Notes under the pieces: model-generated
Told to the model about the DNA's origin: nothing
What the model saw: only the letters and a program-made list of their open reading frames with translations
Database searches by the model: none
Position numbers and translations under genes: made by a program
Origin: a virus
Reading direction: 5' to 3' (one strand)
DNA: 27,362 nucleotides
IMG/VR virus record: IMGVR_UViG_3300020182_002139
Coordinates: 1-27,362 of that record
In this document: one piece after another, positions 2,484-26,503 of the stretch
Layout of the letters: the number at the start of each line of letters is the position of its first letter
How positions within the stretch are numbered: position 1 is the first letter of the stretch

Positions 2484-3497
2484 ATGAGAATCGAAGACGA
2501 AATAAAATTGGATTTCAAAGACGTATTGATTCGTCCCAAACGCAGTACACTGTCAAGTCGCAAAGAAGTTGATTTAACTAGAACGTACAAGTTCAAACAC
2601 AGCCGAGCAGACTGGACTGGGGTGCCTGTTATGGCAGCCAACATGGACGGTGTTGGTACACTCGAGATGGCAGCGGCTTTGCAACAGCACAACATGTTTA
2701 CTTGTACAGTAAAGTCATACGACGAGGGTGATTTTGGCGGCATTGATATTGACTTTGACAATTTTGCGGTAAGTACTGGTACAAGCAGTGGAGATTTTAA
2801 TAAATTAAAGCGTATTTTTGCCGTTTACCCAGAGCTTAAATTTATTTGCATTGATGTAGCCAATGGTTACCAGGAAATTTTTGCAGATTACGTAGCCCGT
2901 GTTCGTGAAGAATTCCCTACAAAAACTATTATTGCGGGCAACGTAGTCACTGCTGATATGACACAGGAGTTGATTTTACGTGGAGCCGATATTGTTAAAG
3001 TGGGCATTGGTCCTGGTAGCGTTTGTACTACTCGCGTGCAGACTGGTGTGGGTTATCCACAACTTACTGCAATCATCGAGTGTGCGGATGCAGCTCATGG
3101 CCTCGGCGCACATATTATCGGTGATGGTGGTTGCACTTGCCCTGGCGATGTCGCTAAGGCTTTCGGAGCTGGTGCTGATTTTGTTATGCTCGGGGGGATG
3201 TTAGCCGGGCACGACCAAGGTGGTGGTACTGTAGAGGATGGTAAGATCACATTCTACGGCATGAGTAGTGACACTGCCATGGACAAACACAGTGGCGGAG
3301 TTGCTAGTTATCGTTCAAGCGAAGGCAGGACCGTTACTGTTCCATACAAAGGCACAGTAGAAAACACAGTGCTAGACTTGCTTGGCGGATTACGTAGTTC
3401 ATGCACTTATGTTGGTGCACCAAGTTTAAAACAACTCAGCAAATGCACAACCTTTATCCGTGTCAACAGACAAATCAACGATGTGTTTATAAAATGA
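2484..3497 (+). CDS. guaC: GMP reductase
   Basis: This 337-residue TIM-barrel protein follows E. coli GuaC closely: N-terminal [25 protein letters not shown] (51-59), STGTSSGDF, and the catalytic loop [11 protein letters not shown] with C181. It then has [18 protein letters not shown] and [11 protein letters not shown]. It lacks the CBS domains typical of IMP dehydrogenase and has the length expected of GuaC. The reaction is NADPH-dependent deamination of GMP to IMP, so it would draw guanine nucleotides back to the IMP branch point. It begins at the base after the glyA stop and overlaps the next start by ATGA, giving a translationally coupled three-gene operon. Confidence 0.93.
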
Positions 3498-9439: not shown

Positions 9440-10531
9440 ATGACATATCTATTTACAAGCGAATCAGTATCAGAAGGACACCCAGACAAAGTAGCAGATG
9501 CTATCAGTGATGCAGTATTAGATCTTGTCATGAGTAAAGAAGATCCTTCTCTGCGGTGTGCATGTGAAACTCTTGTCACTACAAATCGAGTGGTGCTGGC
9601 CGGAGAGTACAAAGGCATACTACACAACCAAGAAGTTGACAGTGCAGTACGAAAAGTCATTAAGGACATTGGTTACGAGCAAGATGGATTCCATTGGAAC
9701 AATGTAGAAATTACAAACTTGTTACACGGACAAAGTGCAGACATTGCATTGGGCACAGACACCTTTGGTGCAGGTGATCAGGGGTTGATGTTTGGTTACG
9801 CTACAAAAGAAACTGCTAACTACATGCCCAGTGCAATTTATTGGAGCCATTGCATTGTCGAAGAGCTAACCAAAGTTCGCAAGCAAGGTTCTACAGTGCT
9901 CGGTCCTGATGCCAAAAGTCAAGTGACATTTGAATACAACGATGACGGCAAGCCCGTGCGTATTGCCAAAGTTGTTTGCTCAACTCAACATAGCGAAGAT
10001 GCAGATATCAAATTTGTAAGAGAGTTTGTTGAGCGCATTATTCGAGAAGTTTTGCCAGCGCACTATGTCGACAGTGCTACAGAGTTCCACATCAATCCCA
10101 CTGGACGTTTTGTAGTTGGTGGGCCAGATGGTGACTGTGGGTTAACAGGACGCAAGATTATTGTTGACACATACGGCGGCTCAAGTCCGCATGGCGGCGG
10201 CGCATTTAGTGGCAAAGATCCCACCAAAGTAGATCGCAGTGCCGCCTACTTGACACGTTGGATTGCTAAAAACATTGTGGCAAGTGGCCGTGCAGATTGG
10301 GCCACTGTTCAAATCAGCTATGCTATTGGTATGAAAGATCCGATGAGCTTTTACATTGAAAGTAATGGTGACAGTAGACAGCTAACCAAGACAGTTGAAA
10401 ACTTAGTTGACATGACACCAAAAGGTATTATTGATAGATTTGAGCTGTTCCGTCCTATCTACAGTAGCACAACCAACTATGGACACTTTGGCAAGGATTA
10501 TTTGCCATGGGAAAAGATTGATTTATTCTAG
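9440..10531 (+). CDS. metK: S-adenosylmethionine synthetase
   Basis: A 363-residue protein with all three MetK landmarks: FTSESVSEGHPDKVAD with H14, D16 and K17 in the ATP site, the hexapeptide GAGDQG at 110-115, and the glycine-rich P-loop-like GGGAFSGKDPTKVDRSAAY in the later half. It is about 20 residues shorter than E. coli MetK, mostly at the ends. It makes SAM from methionine and ATP. AAAGGAAA upstream fixes the start at 9440. SAM users in the window are two methyltransferase-like proteins and QueE, so the gene probably boosts cofactor supply during infection. Confidence 0.95.
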   Translation: MTYLFTSESVSEGHPDKVADAISDAVLDLVMSKEDPSLRCACETLVTTNRVVLAGEYKGILHNQEVDSAVRKVIKDIGYEQDGFHWNNVEITNLLHGQSADIALGTDTFGAGDQGLMFGYATKETANYMPSAIYWSHCIVEELTKVRKQGSTVLGPDAKSQVTFEYNDDGKPVRIAKVVCSTQHSEDADIKFVREFVERIIREVLPAHYVDSATEFHINPTGRFVVGGPDGDCGLTGRKIIVDTYGGSSPHGGGAFSGKDPTKVDRSAAYLTRWIAKNIVASGRADWATVQISYAIGMKDPMSFYIESNGDSRQLTKTVENLVDMTPKGIIDRFELFRPIYSSTTNYGHFGKDYLPWEKIDLF

Positions 10532-16645: not shown

Positions 16646-17643
16646 TTAGAATACACGGACCTTCGTATGTTTACAATGGACAAGTTTTACATAAACCGGA
16701 AACAATATTTGTTCAAGATCATCATTACAACGAAAACGATCGCTGTTTTTATGTAAAAGAATTATTAGATAACAGTATGTGTAATCCACACGACCATACA
16801 TTAATAATGGATCATGTATTGCAGCACGACGACGAATTAAAAGATTATAACATTTTACGTTACCCAAGTTTCCTTGGTAACCAAGTACAATTATTCATTA
16901 ATCAGAACATTATACCAGAATGGAGTAACCGTAAACAATGTTTTAATTTTATGATTAATAAGCCAAGATTTCACAGAGAGTTCTTGTTGGTATTGATTGA
17001 ACATTTTAAATTGACCAACTACAACTATACATTGTGCTGGAAAAAGCCTGCCATATCAACATCCACATTGTCAGCATTGACTGAAAAATATAAACAATTA
17101 ATATTAGACACACCTATAACAATTGATACAAAAAACTTTTTACTGGGGCAAGAGAACTTGCTGGATCGCGGATTGCAATATAAGCATGTTCAAAATTCCG
17201 AAAACTATCAAAAGTTTTTACAGAAAGAAGTGTTCGAACCCACGTGCATAAGTGTTGTTACAGAACCTGCTTTCTTTGAAAAAGAAACTATAATAACAGA
17301 AAAAACTTTAATGAGTATATACAGTGGCACATTGCCAATTTGGGTAGGCGGTTGGCGTTGTGCTGATATCATGCGCGAGTATGGGTTCGATGTGTTTGAT
17401 GACATTATTGATCATAGTTACCAAAATATGGAGGATCCATTTGATCGTTGCTACTATGCTGTTGAACGCAATCTTGACGTATTAAAGGACTTTGATCGTG
17501 CCAACAACTTTGTCCAAAGTAATCGTGGACGGTTTGAACACAATTTGCAACTGTTAAAAGACAATGTGTTCCAAAAGGAAGTTGATCAAATAAACAAAAA
17601 ACAGTTGACGAATAATACAAAGACTGTTATAATTAACACTTAG
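16642..17643 (+). CDS. Glycosyltransferase-like protein (paralogue 2)
   Basis: 333 residues. Shared core: SVVTEPAFFEKETIITEKTL followed by LPIWVGGWRCADIMREYGFD and FDDIIDHSYQN. The TEKT-x(9-12)-P-I-x-V-G arrangement resembles exostosin-like and family 10 glycosyltransferases. It is A+T rich in the first half. The promoter for the downstream tRNA array (17605-17633) lies within its last 40 bases. Confidence 0.6.
   Translation: MIRIHGPSYVYNGQVLHKPETIFVQDHHYNENDRCFYVKELLDNSMCNPHDHTLIMDHVLQHDDELKDYNILRYPSFLGNQVQLFINQNIIPEWSNRKQCFNFMINKPRFHREFLLVLIEHFKLTNYNYTLCWKKPAISTSTLSALTEKYKQLILDTPITIDTKNFLLGQENLLDRGLQYKHVQNSENYQKFLQKEVFEPTCISVVTEPAFFEKETIITEKTLMSIYSGTLPIWVGGWRCADIMREYGFDVFDDIIDHSYQNMEDPFDRCYYAVERNLDVLKDFDRANNFVQSNRGRFEHNLQLLKDNVFQKEVDQINKKQLTNNTKTVIINT
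17605..17633 (+). promoter_or_regulatory. Sigma70 promoter for the tRNA array
   Basis: TTGACG (17605-17610), 17-base spacer, TATAAT (17628-17633). The predicted start near 17640 lies 59 bases before the mature 5' end of tRNA-Glu. The hexamers overlap the end of the preceding coding sequence. Confidence 0.7.
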
Positions 17644-17698: not shown

Positions 17699-17774
17699 GG
17701 TCCTATCGTCTAGAGGCCTAGGACACCACCCTTTCACGGTGGTTACAGGGGTTCGAATCCCCTTAGGACTACCA
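17699..17774 (+). tRNA. tRNA-Glu (TTC)
   Basis: 76 bases with the anticodon in CCTTTCA, a good D-arm (GTCTAGAGGCCTAGGAC), T-arm AGGGG/CCCCT and encoded CCA. The acceptor stem GGTCCTA/TAGGACT closes with a G1-U72 wobble in place of the usual G-C. The CCA tail forms the first bases of the structured element that follows. Confidence 0.95.
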
Positions 17775-17888
17775 TATATAAGCCAATTGAGTTTGACTCG
17801 CAAAGTTGAATGGGGTGTTGAAGTTGAGAGGACCGGCCGGACTGCTTATACACATATACACCGAGATACCAGTTGGCTTATATATGGT
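17771..17888 (+). repeat. 118-base structured element, copy A
   Basis: A perfect 16-bp inverted repeat bounds the element (17771-17786 with 17873-17888). Inside is a 6-bp hairpin, TTGACT / AGTTGA with loop CGCAA (17792-17808), a possible GGTGT/ACACC stem, and the palindrome CCGGCCGG (17833-17840). Copy B at 18296 is identical in length and very similar. All but one of the differences fall in, and preserve, self-complementary positions. The first four bases are the ACCA of tRNA-Glu. It may be a structured RNA processed with the tRNAs or a small non-coding mobile element. No known Rfam family comes to mind. Confidence 0.7.
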
Positions 17889-17896
17889 ACAAATTT

Positions 17897-17971
17897 CTGG
17901 CGTTAGTTCAACGGATAGAACATAGAGCTTCTACCTCTAGAATGTGGGTTCGATTCCTGCACGCCGGACCA
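17897..17971 (+). tRNA. tRNA-Arg (TCT)
   Basis: 75 bases. Acceptor CTGGCGT/ACGCCGG, anticodon arm TAGAG-CTTCTAC-CTCTA giving TCT (reads AGA), TTCGATT T-loop and encoded CCA. AGA is used frequently in the A+T-rich genes of this window. Confidence 0.93.
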
Positions 17972-18295
17972 GGTTATAGCGAGTCTATCCAGTCCAAAGC
18001 GGATTGGTAATTGTTGAACCATTTCATTTTTAAACGATTGCTATATATGTCGTTGACAAAAATGTAACAGGTGTTATACTCACTTAGTGACACGTGAATA
18101 TGTAAATGCCCGCTACTGCTGACCAGATCAGTTGTATGCATATAAATATTTAGTTGTTGACAAATCCCATGCAAGTGCATAAGGTTCGGTTATTGCCTTA
18201 AAAATAACTCACGCCTCGCAACGTGTACGGCAATGCAGAAGCCGGTTAAAGACAAGGGTTGTTCCTGTCGAAGAAGCACTAATTTGGTTACAGTG
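17972..18295 (+). other. Long tRNA-array spacer with promoter-like and folded segments
   Basis: 324 bases without a convincing gene. It contains a 7-bp hairpin right after tRNA-Arg (CCAGTCC/GGATTGG, 17989-18007), a sigma70-type promoter (separate entry), TATAAATA at 18141-18148 resembling a late promoter, and a folded part from about 18190: ATTGCC with GGCAAT enclosing CACG/CGTG. The segment ends in ACCA, as a tRNA would, immediately before element copy B, but I cannot fold a tRNA in it. A 68-residue minus-strand frame covers 17974-18180, ending MKWFNNYQSALDWIDSL, without a good ribosome-binding site. Confidence 0.5.
18053..18080 (+). promoter_or_regulatory. Internal sigma70-type promoter in the tRNA array
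   Basis: TTGACA (18053-18058), 16-base spacer, TATACT (18075-18080), about 210 bases upstream of element copy B and 340 upstream of tRNA-Tyr. It would give the distal tRNAs their own transcript. Confidence 0.6.
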
Positions 18296-18413
18296 ACCAT
18301 ATATAAGCCAATTGAGTCTGACCCGCAAGGTTGGATGGGGTGTTGAAGTTGAGAGGACCTGCAGGACTGCTCATACACATATACACCGAGATACCAGTTG
18401 GCTTATATATGGT
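18296..18413 (+). repeat. 118-base structured element, copy B
   Basis: Same 16-bp inverted ends as copy A (18296-18311 with 18398-18413) and the same length. In the inner hairpin CTGACC / GGTTGG (loop CGCAA) two T-A pairs of copy A are now C-G pairs. The central palindrome CCGGCCGG is now CCTGCAGG, again both halves changed together. A single unpaired T-to-C difference follows in ACTGCTT/ACTGCTC. Seven differences in 118 bases, six of them in three compensating pairs, point to selection on structure. It sits just upstream of tRNA-Tyr. Confidence 0.7.
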
Positions 18414-18421
18414 AAGAATTT

Positions 18422-18507
18422 GGACAGGTGGGCGAGTGGTTAATGCCAACAGACTGTAAATCTGTCACCTAACGGTTACGAAGGTTCGAATCCTTCCTTG
18501 TCCACCA
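18422..18507 (+). tRNA. tRNA-Tyr (GTA)
   Basis: 86 bases with a long variable arm as expected for bacterial Tyr. Anticodon arm ACAGA-CTGTAAA-TCTGT gives GTA. Acceptor GGACAGG/CTTGTCC, T-loop TTCGAAT, encoded CCA. Confidence 0.95.
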
Positions 18508-18684
18508 GAACGTTCTGCTTTGTTCGCAGATACTATGACCCGTAGGATGAGAAGTGGGGTGACTCCCAAGGGTGGTACTACTCTTACCGAAGTAGCGTTA
18601 GCAACACGAGAGCGGTCCCGGTCGGGAAGCGGGTAGAAGGAGCGTATGCTCTATAATTACCGCCGCGGGACGTCAGAGCTTTTA
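18508..18684 (+). ncRNA. Structured spacer between tRNA-Tyr and tRNA-Asp (candidate ncRNA)
   Basis: 177 bases with several nested helices and no ORF support. TCTGC/GCAGA hairpin follows tRNA-Tyr. GTCCCG near 18614 can pair with CGGGAC near 18666, enclosing GGTA/TACC and GGAGC/GCTCT around a GTAT loop. The segment ends in GAGCTTTT just before tRNA-Asp. Not a match to RNase P, 6S or tRNA patterns that I know. The boundaries are those of the flanking tRNAs. Confidence 0.4.
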
Positions 18685-18759: not shown

Positions 18760-19034
18760 ATAAAACCCGGATTACACTTTTACGTTAATAAAGTGCGTTA
18801 TTGCCGATACGATAGAGGCACGGTGCATTGGATCTACCGCAAGGCAGTTAAGGCGACTTGAGAAATCACAAAGGCGGGGTCGCTTGCCCGTCTAAATGGA
18901 AAAGGCAGCGCGGACAGAGTAACAGCTCAGTCTAGGGCTCCTGTGGTGGGAGTGGCTAGACACTATTCTAAAACACATTACTAAGAGTCCAGGTTCAGAG
19001 CGTGGCATAGTGTGTTTCAGAATAGAAAGAATAA
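18760..19034 (+). ncRNA. Structured spacer with two long hairpins (candidate ncRNA)
   Basis: 275 bases between tRNA-Asp and tRNA-Ile2. CACTTT/AAAGTG forms a small hairpin near its start. GTCTAG (18930-18935) pairs with CTAGAC (18956-18961) over an inner CTCC/GGAG helix. The strongest structure is 18963-18980 with 19008-19025: 18 paired positions broken only by one A-C mismatch and containing one G-U wobble, around a 27-base loop. These are too long and regular for tRNA leader sequence. Candidate small RNA, RNase III processing site or part of a precursor scaffold; not assignable to a known family. Confidence 0.5.
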
Positions 19035-22174: not shown

Positions 22175-22231
22175 AGCATAATATTAAAGCAGACAGTGTG
22201 TTACACGCAAAATATTGGAGAAAATAGAAAA

Positions 22232-23248
22232 ATGCACGATTTAGTAAAAACAGTATCAGAGTATGTTGATAACGTATTAATTCCAAATGAGAATAAAATC
22301 CCAGCAGATTACTTTGATGAATTTGTCAGGATGGGATTTTTTAGGATTGGCCACAGTGAGCAATACGGCGGATTAGGTTTGTCATTAAGAGATCAGATAC
22401 TCATTCAAATGCAATTTGGCCGCACAAAGTTAGGGTTCCGTAATCAGTTCAGTACAACTACAACACTCGCATCCGGATTGCTTGATCAATTTGGCGAAGC
22501 AGAATTGTTAGAGCAAATCAATAACGGTACTGTTATTTCAATGGCATATACCGAACCTGGAAAGACGTCGTCGACAACATATGAACGTGTTGACGACAAT
22601 AGTTGGAAGATCAATGGATCAAAAATGTACATTAGTAATTCACCCCTTGCTACATGGTTTATTGTGTTTGCAAGCGGCACTTTTTTTCTTGTCCACAAAG
22701 ATCAAGTCAAGGTTGGTAACGCACACCTCAAAATGGGGCAAGAAGAAAATCCTGTAGCCGATGTGTATTTTGACAATTCAATCTCAACCAAAATGTTAGG
22801 ACAGGAAGGCCGTGCATTGCCACTTGCCGAAGGTGCATTTACTCGTGGTAGGTTAATTGTCACTGCGGTAGCAGTTGGGATGTCTATACGTATGTGTGAC
22901 GAAATGGTAGCGTATGCCAAAGCAAGAAACGTATTTCAGCATCAGTTAGTGCAAGGACTTATTGCTGATAGTGTTGCTAAAACCTATGCAGCAAAAGCAA
23001 TGGTAATTGAAGCCGCAACTAACTTCTCTCCGCTATCCTCGAGTGCAGCTAAGTTGTTTTGCACCAATGCTGCTTGCCAAGTAGCAGACAATGCTGTACA
23101 GGTTCTAGGTGGGTACGGTTTTATGAAAGGCCATATAATTGAGCAATTTTATCGTGACGTTAGAGTCATGAGGTTGTACGAAGGCACGGATGAAATACAA
23201 AAATTAAACATTGCAAAACATTTCAAAGAAGGAATACTAAATGAGTAA
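22232..23248 (+). CDS. Acyl-CoA dehydrogenase family protein
   Basis: 338 residues from ATG 22232; an in-frame GTG at 22196 is less likely because GGAG lies between the two. Landmarks: EQYGGLGLSL, the first ACAD signature region as SMAYTEPGKTSSTTYE, and the C-terminal VLGGYGFMKGHIIEQFYRD. The last is followed by LYEGTDEIQ, whose Glu (about 317) is the usual catalytic base. It is somewhat shorter than the 380 typical of bacterial ACADs. The family introduces an alpha-beta double bond in acyl-CoA using FAD. Here it may act on carrier-bound substrates with the neighbouring desaturase and thioesterase. It overlaps the next gene by eight bases. Confidence 0.88.
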   Translation: MHDLVKTVSEYVDNVLIPNENKIPADYFDEFVRMGFFRIGHSEQYGGLGLSLRDQILIQMQFGRTKLGFRNQFSTTTTLASGLLDQFGEAELLEQINNGTVISMAYTEPGKTSSTTYERVDDNSWKINGSKMYISNSPLATWFIVFASGTFFLVHKDQVKVGNAHLKMGQEENPVADVYFDNSISTKMLGQEGRALPLAEGAFTRGRLIVTAVAVGMSIRMCDEMVAYAKARNVFQHQLVQGLIADSVAKTYAAKAMVIEAATNFSPLSSSAAKLFCTNAACQVADNAVQVLGGYGFMKGHIIEQFYRDVRVMRLYEGTDEIQKLNIAKHFKEGILNE

Positions 23249-25950: not shown

Positions 25951-26139
25951 ATGTACCCAGAGCCTCAAAAACCCACTAGTTGCTGTGGCAGAGGTTGTGA
26001 GCATTGTGTGTGGATCAGTTATTTTGAAGCACACAATCGTTGGTTGGAATTGTATAAAAAAGATAGTTGTAATCCCTTCGAAGAGAAGGAATCCAAGACG
26101 GGGGTGCAAATCCCCCCACCTCCACCAAAAGGAAATTAG
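25951..26139 (+). CDS. Cysteine-rich oxidoreductase-like small protein
   Basis: 62 residues. The N-terminal 35 (EPQKPTSCCGRGCEHCVW and ISYFEAHNRW) match the oxidoreductase-like N-terminal domain (Pfam PF09791 as I recall it), with four cysteines C11, C12, C16 and C19. The last 20-25 codons run through the acceptor piece of the tmRNA gene, whose T arm is read as GVQIPPPPPKGN. Either coding and RNA functions overlap, or the coding region was originally shorter. A function in metal or redox binding is inferred from the cysteines only. Confidence 0.65.
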   Translation: MYPEPQKPTSCCGRGCEHCVWISYFEAHNRWLELYKKDSCNPFEEKESKTGVQIPPPPPKGN

Positions 26140-26168
26140 TATGATTAAACTGTTAACAAAGGGGCAAC

Positions 26169-26285
26169 ATGAAGAACCCCTTAGTACGAGAATTAAGTAA
26201 GTGGATGTTTAAAGCATATATTGTTTGGAGCATATGTGCTGACATTGCGTTACTTGGTGGTTTAATTTATCTAGTGTTCTTTTGA
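26169..26285 (+). CDS. One-helix membrane microprotein in the tmRNA intervening segment
   Basis: 38 residues starting MKNPLVRELSKWMFKAY, then a hydrophobic helix with the end LGGLIYLVFF. It has a positive N-terminal side and a single membrane span, as in phage lysis-associated or toxin-like microproteins. TGA at 26283-26285 lies one base before the mature tmRNA 5' end. A short frame of 19 codons at 26141 with an AAGGAAA site overlaps it and may couple its translation. Its own ribosome-binding site (GGGGCAAC) is poor. Confidence 0.5.
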   Translation: MKNPLVRELSKWMFKAYIVWSICADIALLGGLIYLVFF

Positions 26286-26371
26286 TGGGGGTGCACCAGT
26301 ATCGATTGGGTTAGATATCAGAGACGGCAACTCAGTAGGCGATGACTGTAAATCAAGCAAAACTCGTAAAT

Positions 26372-26461
26372 GCAACCGCAAATACAAAAGGTAGCGTAAC
26401 TGTCAGTGGCAAGAACATCAAGTTCTCACGTCGCGGCCAGGAAGCTGTACTAGCCTAATAG
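26372..26461 (+). other. tmRNA proteolysis-tag reading frame
   Basis: The resume codon is GCA at 26378 (or in-frame GCA at 26372). From 26378 the tag is 26 residues: ANTKGSVTVSG, then KNIKFSRRGQEAVLA, followed by two stops, TAA and TAG. The NI-x-FSR portion and small hydrophobic end recall the marine cyanobacterial tag pattern ANxIVxFSRxxAPVAA, as I remember it, with an 11-residue insertion before it. The C-terminal VLA differs from the common LAA/VAA degron. Confidence 0.65.
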
Positions 26462-26503
26462 CTAGACCCGGGGCAGGACTTGCCTTGTCAAATAAACAAC
26501 CAG

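Follow-up and report, generated by a model that had tools for sequence, protein, structure and literature searches.

A duplicated 118-nt RNA element in a jumbo-phage tRNA array and its possible self-pairing through palindromic loops

Introduction

GOLLD and ROOL, two RNAs encoded near phage tRNA islands, recently proved to be multimers made of RNA only, of unknown purpose. The present locus raises a related question. The virus record IMGVR_UViG_3300020182_002139 of IMG/VR, analysed over a stretch of 27,362 nucleotides (the window), contains an array of eight tRNA genes in which a unit of 118 nt with inverted ends occurs twice. It may be asked whether this unit is an RNA in its own right, a signal for tRNA processing, a mobile element or a binding site on the DNA. 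An earlier note, made from the letters of this DNA, proposed an undescribed structured RNA or a tRNA-linked mobile element, with a palindrome serving either loop-loop dimerisation or protein binding.

The window is a jumbo-phage fragment, and its 5'-3' exonuclease shows 53% identity to that of the Pseudomonas jumbo phage PA5oct.

The twin elements and their differences

The two copies, A and B (Table 1), start 525 nt apart and form a 118-nt repeat at 94% identity, for which chance is excluded; the count of two covers the 27-kb fragment in the record rather than the whole phage genome. The inverted arms, ACCATATATAAGCCAA and TTGGCTTATATATGGT, match perfectly over 16 bp, which bears out the coordinates and the arms given in the earlier note. 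The closing stem, P1, extends past these 16 bp to a length of 19 bp, through a U-G wobble at position 17 followed by U-A and G-C pairs. The first base of copy A is the discriminator (A73) of tRNA-Glu, and the initial ACCA of this copy is therefore the end of the tRNA. Copy B also begins with ACCA, without a predicted tRNA upstream, and the duplicated unit carried its own 8-nt leader. The ACCA start of both copies had been noticed before, and the anchoring on a tRNA CCA has turned out to be far more general than was then visible, as described below.

The copies differ at 7 of the 118 sites. Sites 23/39 and 28/34, which pair within the inner hairpin P2, carry C-G in copy B but U-A in copy A, while sites 65 and 68 change the palindrome of the apical loop from CCTGCAGG in B to CCGGCCGG in A. 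At site 77, a G-C pair is replaced by a G-U wobble when A is compared with B. The paired nature of the differences in P2 and in both halves of the palindrome, reported in the earlier note, is thereby confirmed.

Table 1. Positions of the RNA elements, tRNA genes and promoter-like sites in the window
Feature	Position	Strand	Remark
Sigma-70-like promoter TTGACG-17-TATAAT	17605..17633	+	Precedes the array; consensus match only
tRNA-Glu(UUC)	17699..17774	+	CCA is the base of P1 of copy A
118-nt element, copy A	17771..17888	+	CM match of 142 bits (sequence used to build the model)
P1 5' arm, copy A	17771..17789	+	Opens with ACCA, the last 4 bases of tRNA-Glu
P2 hairpin, copy A	17791..17811	+	8 bp, loop CGCAA; pairs 23/39 and 28/34 changed on both sides relative to B
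Apical palindrome CCGGCCGG, copy A	17833..17840	+	Predicted kissing sequence
P1 3' arm, copy A	17870..17888	+	
tRNA-Arg(UCU)	17897..17971	+	8 nt past copy A
Sigma-70-like promoter TTGACA-16-TATACT	18053..18080	+	Precedes copy B; consensus match only
118-nt element, copy B	18296..18413	+	CM match of 146.9 bits (sequence used to build the model)
P1 5' arm, copy B	18296..18314	+	
P2 hairpin, copy B	18316..18336	+	
Apical palindrome CCTGCAGG, copy B	18358..18365	+	
P1 3' arm, copy B	18395..18413	+	
tRNA-Tyr(GUA)	18422..18507	+	8 nt past copy B
Related hairpin element with AACACATTA / TAGTGTGTT box	18963..19025	+	Cargo found in several other contigs

The fold and a third copy

Folding of the plus-strand RNA gives z-scores of -4.8 for copy A and -5.4 for copy B, with none of 200 shuffled sequences equally stable. 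The values for the minus strand are weaker (-3.2 and -4.2), and the wobble changes also favour the plus strand.

When 2.9 million IMG/VR contigs were scanned, a third copy was found on a different contig (G001, positions 1507-1624), located 7 nt upstream of a tRNA-Tyr gene, much as copy B is placed 8 nt upstream of one. The G001 contig and the window have little DNA in common beyond tRNA genes and one further RNA. The third copy differs from B by seven changes, every one of which falls at a paired position and preserves the pair; three give rise to wobble pairs in P1 and four are found in P2. The earlier note had proposed that additional copies would show whether substitutions preserve pairing, and in G001 no pair is broken. 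At 23/39 and 28/34, the C-G pair of copy B is matched by U-A in copy A and by U·G in G001. This pattern suggests selection on the RNA, and the acceptance of G·U favours an RNA over a terminal repeat of DNA.

All 39 of the 39 pairs are kept in the three copies, compared with 29-37% in controls with slid partners. Transitions often keep pairing (the chance of keeping all pairs with single transitions is P 0.04 for copy A and 0.22 for G001), and shuffling of the 3' letters is uninformative with three rows, so that the three-copy evidence alone is good, not overwhelming. Four further patterns run against IMG/VR returned only G001 and chance matches, the latter including L079-L081, L082/L083 and L322-L326. 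A weak covariance-model match in L029 (E 0.26) covers the interior only, without the outer P1, and was likewise set aside as chance.

The twins have no blastn match in INPHARED or PLSDB. Rfam 15 yields no match to the element at the gathering score or at E<=5, and neither ARAGORN nor Rfam places a tRNA or tmRNA over it. The conclusion that the 118-nt element is a structured RNA is well supported by the pair-preserving changes and their wobble intermediates, and the RNA is apparently undescribed, as the earlier note had supposed.

K124, a family with palindromic apical loops

A family of RNAs of ~124 nt, named K124, was found among CCA-anchored elements that follow tRNA-Glu (e.g. L261:7641-7765) and has members in at least 120 IMG/VR stretches. 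Double-sided changes occur in 23 of its 37 pairs (60 aligned members). The palindrome in its apical loop reaches 8 nt or more in 30 of 37 distinct loops and 6 nt in the other 7, whereas 2.8 of 37 shuffled sequences attain 8 nt, the distinct loops being not fully independent, as the contigs may be related. About 17 different palindromes are present, with inner tetranucleotides GGCC, TGCA, AGCT, TCGA, GATC, ACGT and AATT, and both palindromes of the twins are among them. Neighbouring bases are unable to pair inside a single hairpin, so changes that keep the palindrome suggest that one molecule pairs with another. This line of argument has also been applied to OLE and GOLLD, together with their solved structures (PMC12286853).

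K124 resembles the twins in its length, in a closing stem of 17-20 bp that often starts from CCA and in the palindromic apical loop. It also prefers the same slots, those of copy A (after Glu) and of copy B and G001 (before Tyr): where a tRNA lies directly upstream, it is tRNA-Glu in 30 of 35 cases, and a tRNA-Tyr lies directly downstream in 13. The twins, correspondingly, combine a closing stem with a palindromic apical loop in a Glu or Tyr slot. The difference resides in the interior, where K124 has the motifs GTAAGC, ATAAAC, GTTGA and GCAWATAGTGC. The K124 model matches the twins with 13 bits (E 0.3) through P1 only, equally on both strands, and does not recognise their interior; what is claimed is therefore the same working principle, not membership.

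K124 has no Rfam family at the gathering score, Rfam 15 holds nothing similar to it or to the 118-nt RNA, and a K124 member has no match in INPHARED. Among 84,980 bacterial and archaeal (GTDB) genomes, 8 pattern hits were obtained, approximately the number expected by chance, and none was confirmed by the model. The family was found on viral contigs only. It was not found in ten more phage records, nine of them longer than 200 kb, which indicates that it is not universal.

Stems anchored on tRNA CCA ends

Starting from a conserved stretch 3' of tRNA-Asp, 72 contigs were obtained; almost all of them have tRNA arrays, and several exceed 200 kb. Their spacers contain hairpins in which a AACACATTA...TAGTGTGTT box is conserved (the AACAC-box class), with variable outer stems and interiors so diverse that 117 cargos fall into 83 families. 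In related uncultured jumbo phages, stems that start at CCA are present in 107 of 646 tRNA spacers of 40-400 nt, compared with ~1.3 expected, and about half of these 107, copy A among them, lack the AACAC box. Where the elements are adjacent to a tRNA, the box lies exactly 6 nt past the CCA in 63 of 70. The outer stem of the class shows strong covariation, position 3 being paired in 98% of cases against 49% expected.

Copy A shares with this class a closing stem of ~19 bp from CCA, the U-G at position 17 and an enclosed cargo, while the class is distinguished by its box, the usual A-C mismatch outside it and unrelated short cargos. The twins have GCCAATTG / CAGTTGGC in the part of the stem where the box would be. 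The 118-nt covariance model finds an AACAC-box element in L165 via P1 alone (E 0.003), and this match, together with the CCA anchoring, indicates that the twins share the closing-stem geometry of the class, minus the box. Palindromes in AACAC-box cargos are not above the level of shuffled sequences. Nothing similar to the CCA-anchored cassettes is found in Rfam 15. The cultured jumbo phages PA5oct and XacN1 have no CCA-anchored stem in 13 spacers, which indicates that the feature is a property of particular lineages.

Several details of the AACAC-box class are of separate interest. Position 2, the second pair outside the box, is mismatched in 75% of cases, mostly as A-C or C-A, between pairs that covary, and this fixed mismatch may be a recognition feature. 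Some cargos (L005:1389-1504, L064, L090, L098, L131) contain a T-arm-like GGTTCGANTCC and are tRNA-like without a normal tRNA end; they are possible decoys. In L053, L087, L125 and L126, hairpins of this type are located at the junction of a CCA end and a 5' acceptor strand (CTGGTCCACCA..GGGCCAG). A permuted tmRNA is present in the same locus in L053 and L087, where the hairpin may be its intervening segment.

Other RNAs and genes of the window

A ~200-nt RNA follows tRNA-Asp in the window (18762-18961) and is represented by ~80 loci in phage tRNA arrays. Its alifold consensus contains 45 pairs, 20 of them with double-sided changes (24 full-length unique sequences), and no match was found in Rfam or INPHARED. 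The 27-nt cargo of the neighbouring hairpin of the AACAC-box type (Table 1) recurs in identical or near-identical form within at least three outer stems and next to different genes (L063, L087, L107, L146, L160 and others); the hairpin has no match in INPHARED. The spacer between tRNA-Tyr and tRNA-Asp (18508-18684) is conserved and structured, with 43 matching loci, the best at ~70-77% identity, and no match in Rfam. A permuted tmRNA is located at 26010-26490 (RF04321, 115 bits).

Metabolic genes at 9440-10531, 2484-3497 and 22196-23248 of the window and at ~3600-4500 of L005 encode S-adenosylmethionine synthetase, an IMPDH-like protein and acyl-CoA dehydrogenase. The G001 contig encodes a membrane protein that resembles TctA, as judged solely by visual inspection.

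Proposed self-pairing and alternative explanations

The 118-nt element would be a small non-coding jumbo-phage RNA that is cotranscribed with the neighbouring tRNAs. Sigma-70-like sites precede the array and copy B (Table 1), but such sites show no excess in the region (5 found, 5.6 expected in shuffled sequences). Its ends would be joined by the 19-bp P1, starting in copy A on the CCA of tRNA-Glu, and P1 is predicted to enclose the hairpin P2 and an arm, P3-P4, in a junction fold, with the 8-nt palindrome as the apical loop of the arm. The element would be freed by cleavage at or close to P1 as the tRNAs mature, and two molecules of the same copy could then pair through their palindromes in a symmetric kissing loop. 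After the duplication, structure and self-complementarity would have been kept while the palindrome changed, leaving each copy to pair with its own kind.

The predicted duplex energies are -17.3 for A-A, -14.3 for B-B and -4.9 for A-B. Self-pairing is thus favoured over the mixed pair, and the duplication would yield two non-crossing homodimers. The CC/GG ends of the palindrome are able to close a 4-nt loop, partly hiding it. As the 118-nt type is represented by just three copies with two palindromes, the kissing argument leans on the analogy with K124, in which ~17 palindromes occupy the same apical loop; this lends strong indirect support to the loop-loop dimerisation suggested in the earlier note, and the dimerisation of the twins is to that extent inferred. 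The full proposal, namely a structured RNA that is cotranscribed, released and self-paired by a symmetric kissing loop, with twins that no longer pair with each other, is given an even chance of being correct. A role of the dimer as a GOLLD- or ROOL-like homo-oligomer, or as a decoy, is a guess.

It might instead be supposed that P1 is simply a double-stranded substrate for processing, for example by the host RNase III, which separates the tRNAs and encloses an interior without function. The CCA-anchored stems with their fixed spacing, the length of P1 (~19-20 bp) and the great diversity of the interiors would suit such a spacer. Interiors are nevertheless conserved and covarying in P2 of the twins and in K124, the apical palindromes are kept, and most adjacent tRNA pairs have no such stem, which is therefore not required for processing; this explanation is considered unlikely. 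A cis-regulatory RNA, an attenuator or riboswitch acting on downstream tRNAs or genes, appears very improbable. It would be consistent with the promoter-like site 216 nt upstream of copy B, but the genes that follow are tRNAs, the element overlaps no terminator-like site and no Rfam riboswitch matches it.

The twins could also be a miniature mobile element, the inverted ends of which are recognised by a trans-acting transposase or recombinase and which hops between RNA ends. The element-wise duplication of the unit with its 8-nt leader and the terminal inverted repeats agree with this part of the earlier note, as do the AACAC-box hairpin of the window, identical over 67 nt in L063 between differing flanks, and the recurrence of its cargo within different outer stems elsewhere. 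The exchange of cargos would also be explained by homologous recombination between tRNA arrays or within them, combined with selection on the stem at the RNA level. The flanks (GGACT/ACAAA and CAGTG/AAGAA, by inspection) contain no target-site duplication, no transposase is present among the window genes tested (both contigs being fragments), the 118-nt type was found on two contigs only, and the changes in the outer arms are compensatory and include wobbles, as expected for RNA stems. Transposition of the element has no direct support, and its mobility is regarded as quite improbable. As for the protein-binding site of the earlier note, taken here as a DNA site for a dimeric protein instead of an RNA kissing loop, perfect palindromes are indeed typical of DNA bound by dimers. 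The sequence specificity of a single protein would hardly accommodate the ~17 palindromes that share one position in K124, where the RNA arm that bears them at its apex covaries. The protein-binding proposal has accordingly become the weaker of the two, and the DNA-site reading is considered very unlikely.

The proposed self-pairing RNA may be an instance of a wider arrangement, in which uncultured jumbo phages carry a large repertoire of small-RNA cassettes on tRNA CCA ends and a subset, including the twins and K124, forms homodimers. The palindrome would be free to vary if self-complementary and paralogues would not cross, which would amount to a code of RNA self-recognition; this generalisation is put forward tentatively. 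In giant phages, the tRNA arrays are densely filled with RNAs built on tRNA ends, most of them unannotated, which bears on phage tRNA processing and on what else the arrays deliver in infection. At ~118-126 nt and with one predicted contact each, the twins and K124 are small enough to be synthesised and tested, and the natural variants of the palindrome are ready-made compensatory mutants.

Comparison with known RNAs

The NEMIS of Neisseria are short inverted-repeat elements of bacterial genomes, which are transcribed together with genes and cleaved within the stem, and the tRNA cluster of phage T4 contains extra stable RNAs. The twins would resemble the former as cotranscribed inverted-repeat units cleaved in the stem and the latter as extra RNAs in a phage tRNA cluster. 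The literature searched, in which subscription journals were thinly covered, contains no description of the 118-nt RNA, K124 or the CCA-anchored cassettes. The 118-nt RNA is one of many small RNAs that begin on tRNA ends in uncultured giant phages, and this large set, too, is apparently undescribed.

ROOL, an RNA-only homo-oligomer (PMC12286853), is similar in being a phage or prophage RNA located near tRNA islands. It has its own sequence and structure and assembles into an 8-mer nanocage, and no Rfam match for such an RNA is present in the window.

GOLLD (RF02032) forms homo-oligomers via symmetric kissing loops (PMC12286853). Like the twins in their array, it is a phage RNA without a known role found beside or around tRNA genes, and the same Rfam search detected it in related arrays, of the kind that hold the AACAC-box elements. 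The GOLLD covariance model does not match the 118-nt element at the gathering score or at E<=5, and the region upstream of copy B, considered as a GOLLD homolog, was rejected for want of an Rfam match. The two RNAs also differ in scale: the Rfam model of GOLLD has 416 positions and the RNA, often longer than 800 nt, makes many contacts, while the 118-nt element has one palindrome and a CCA-anchored stem.
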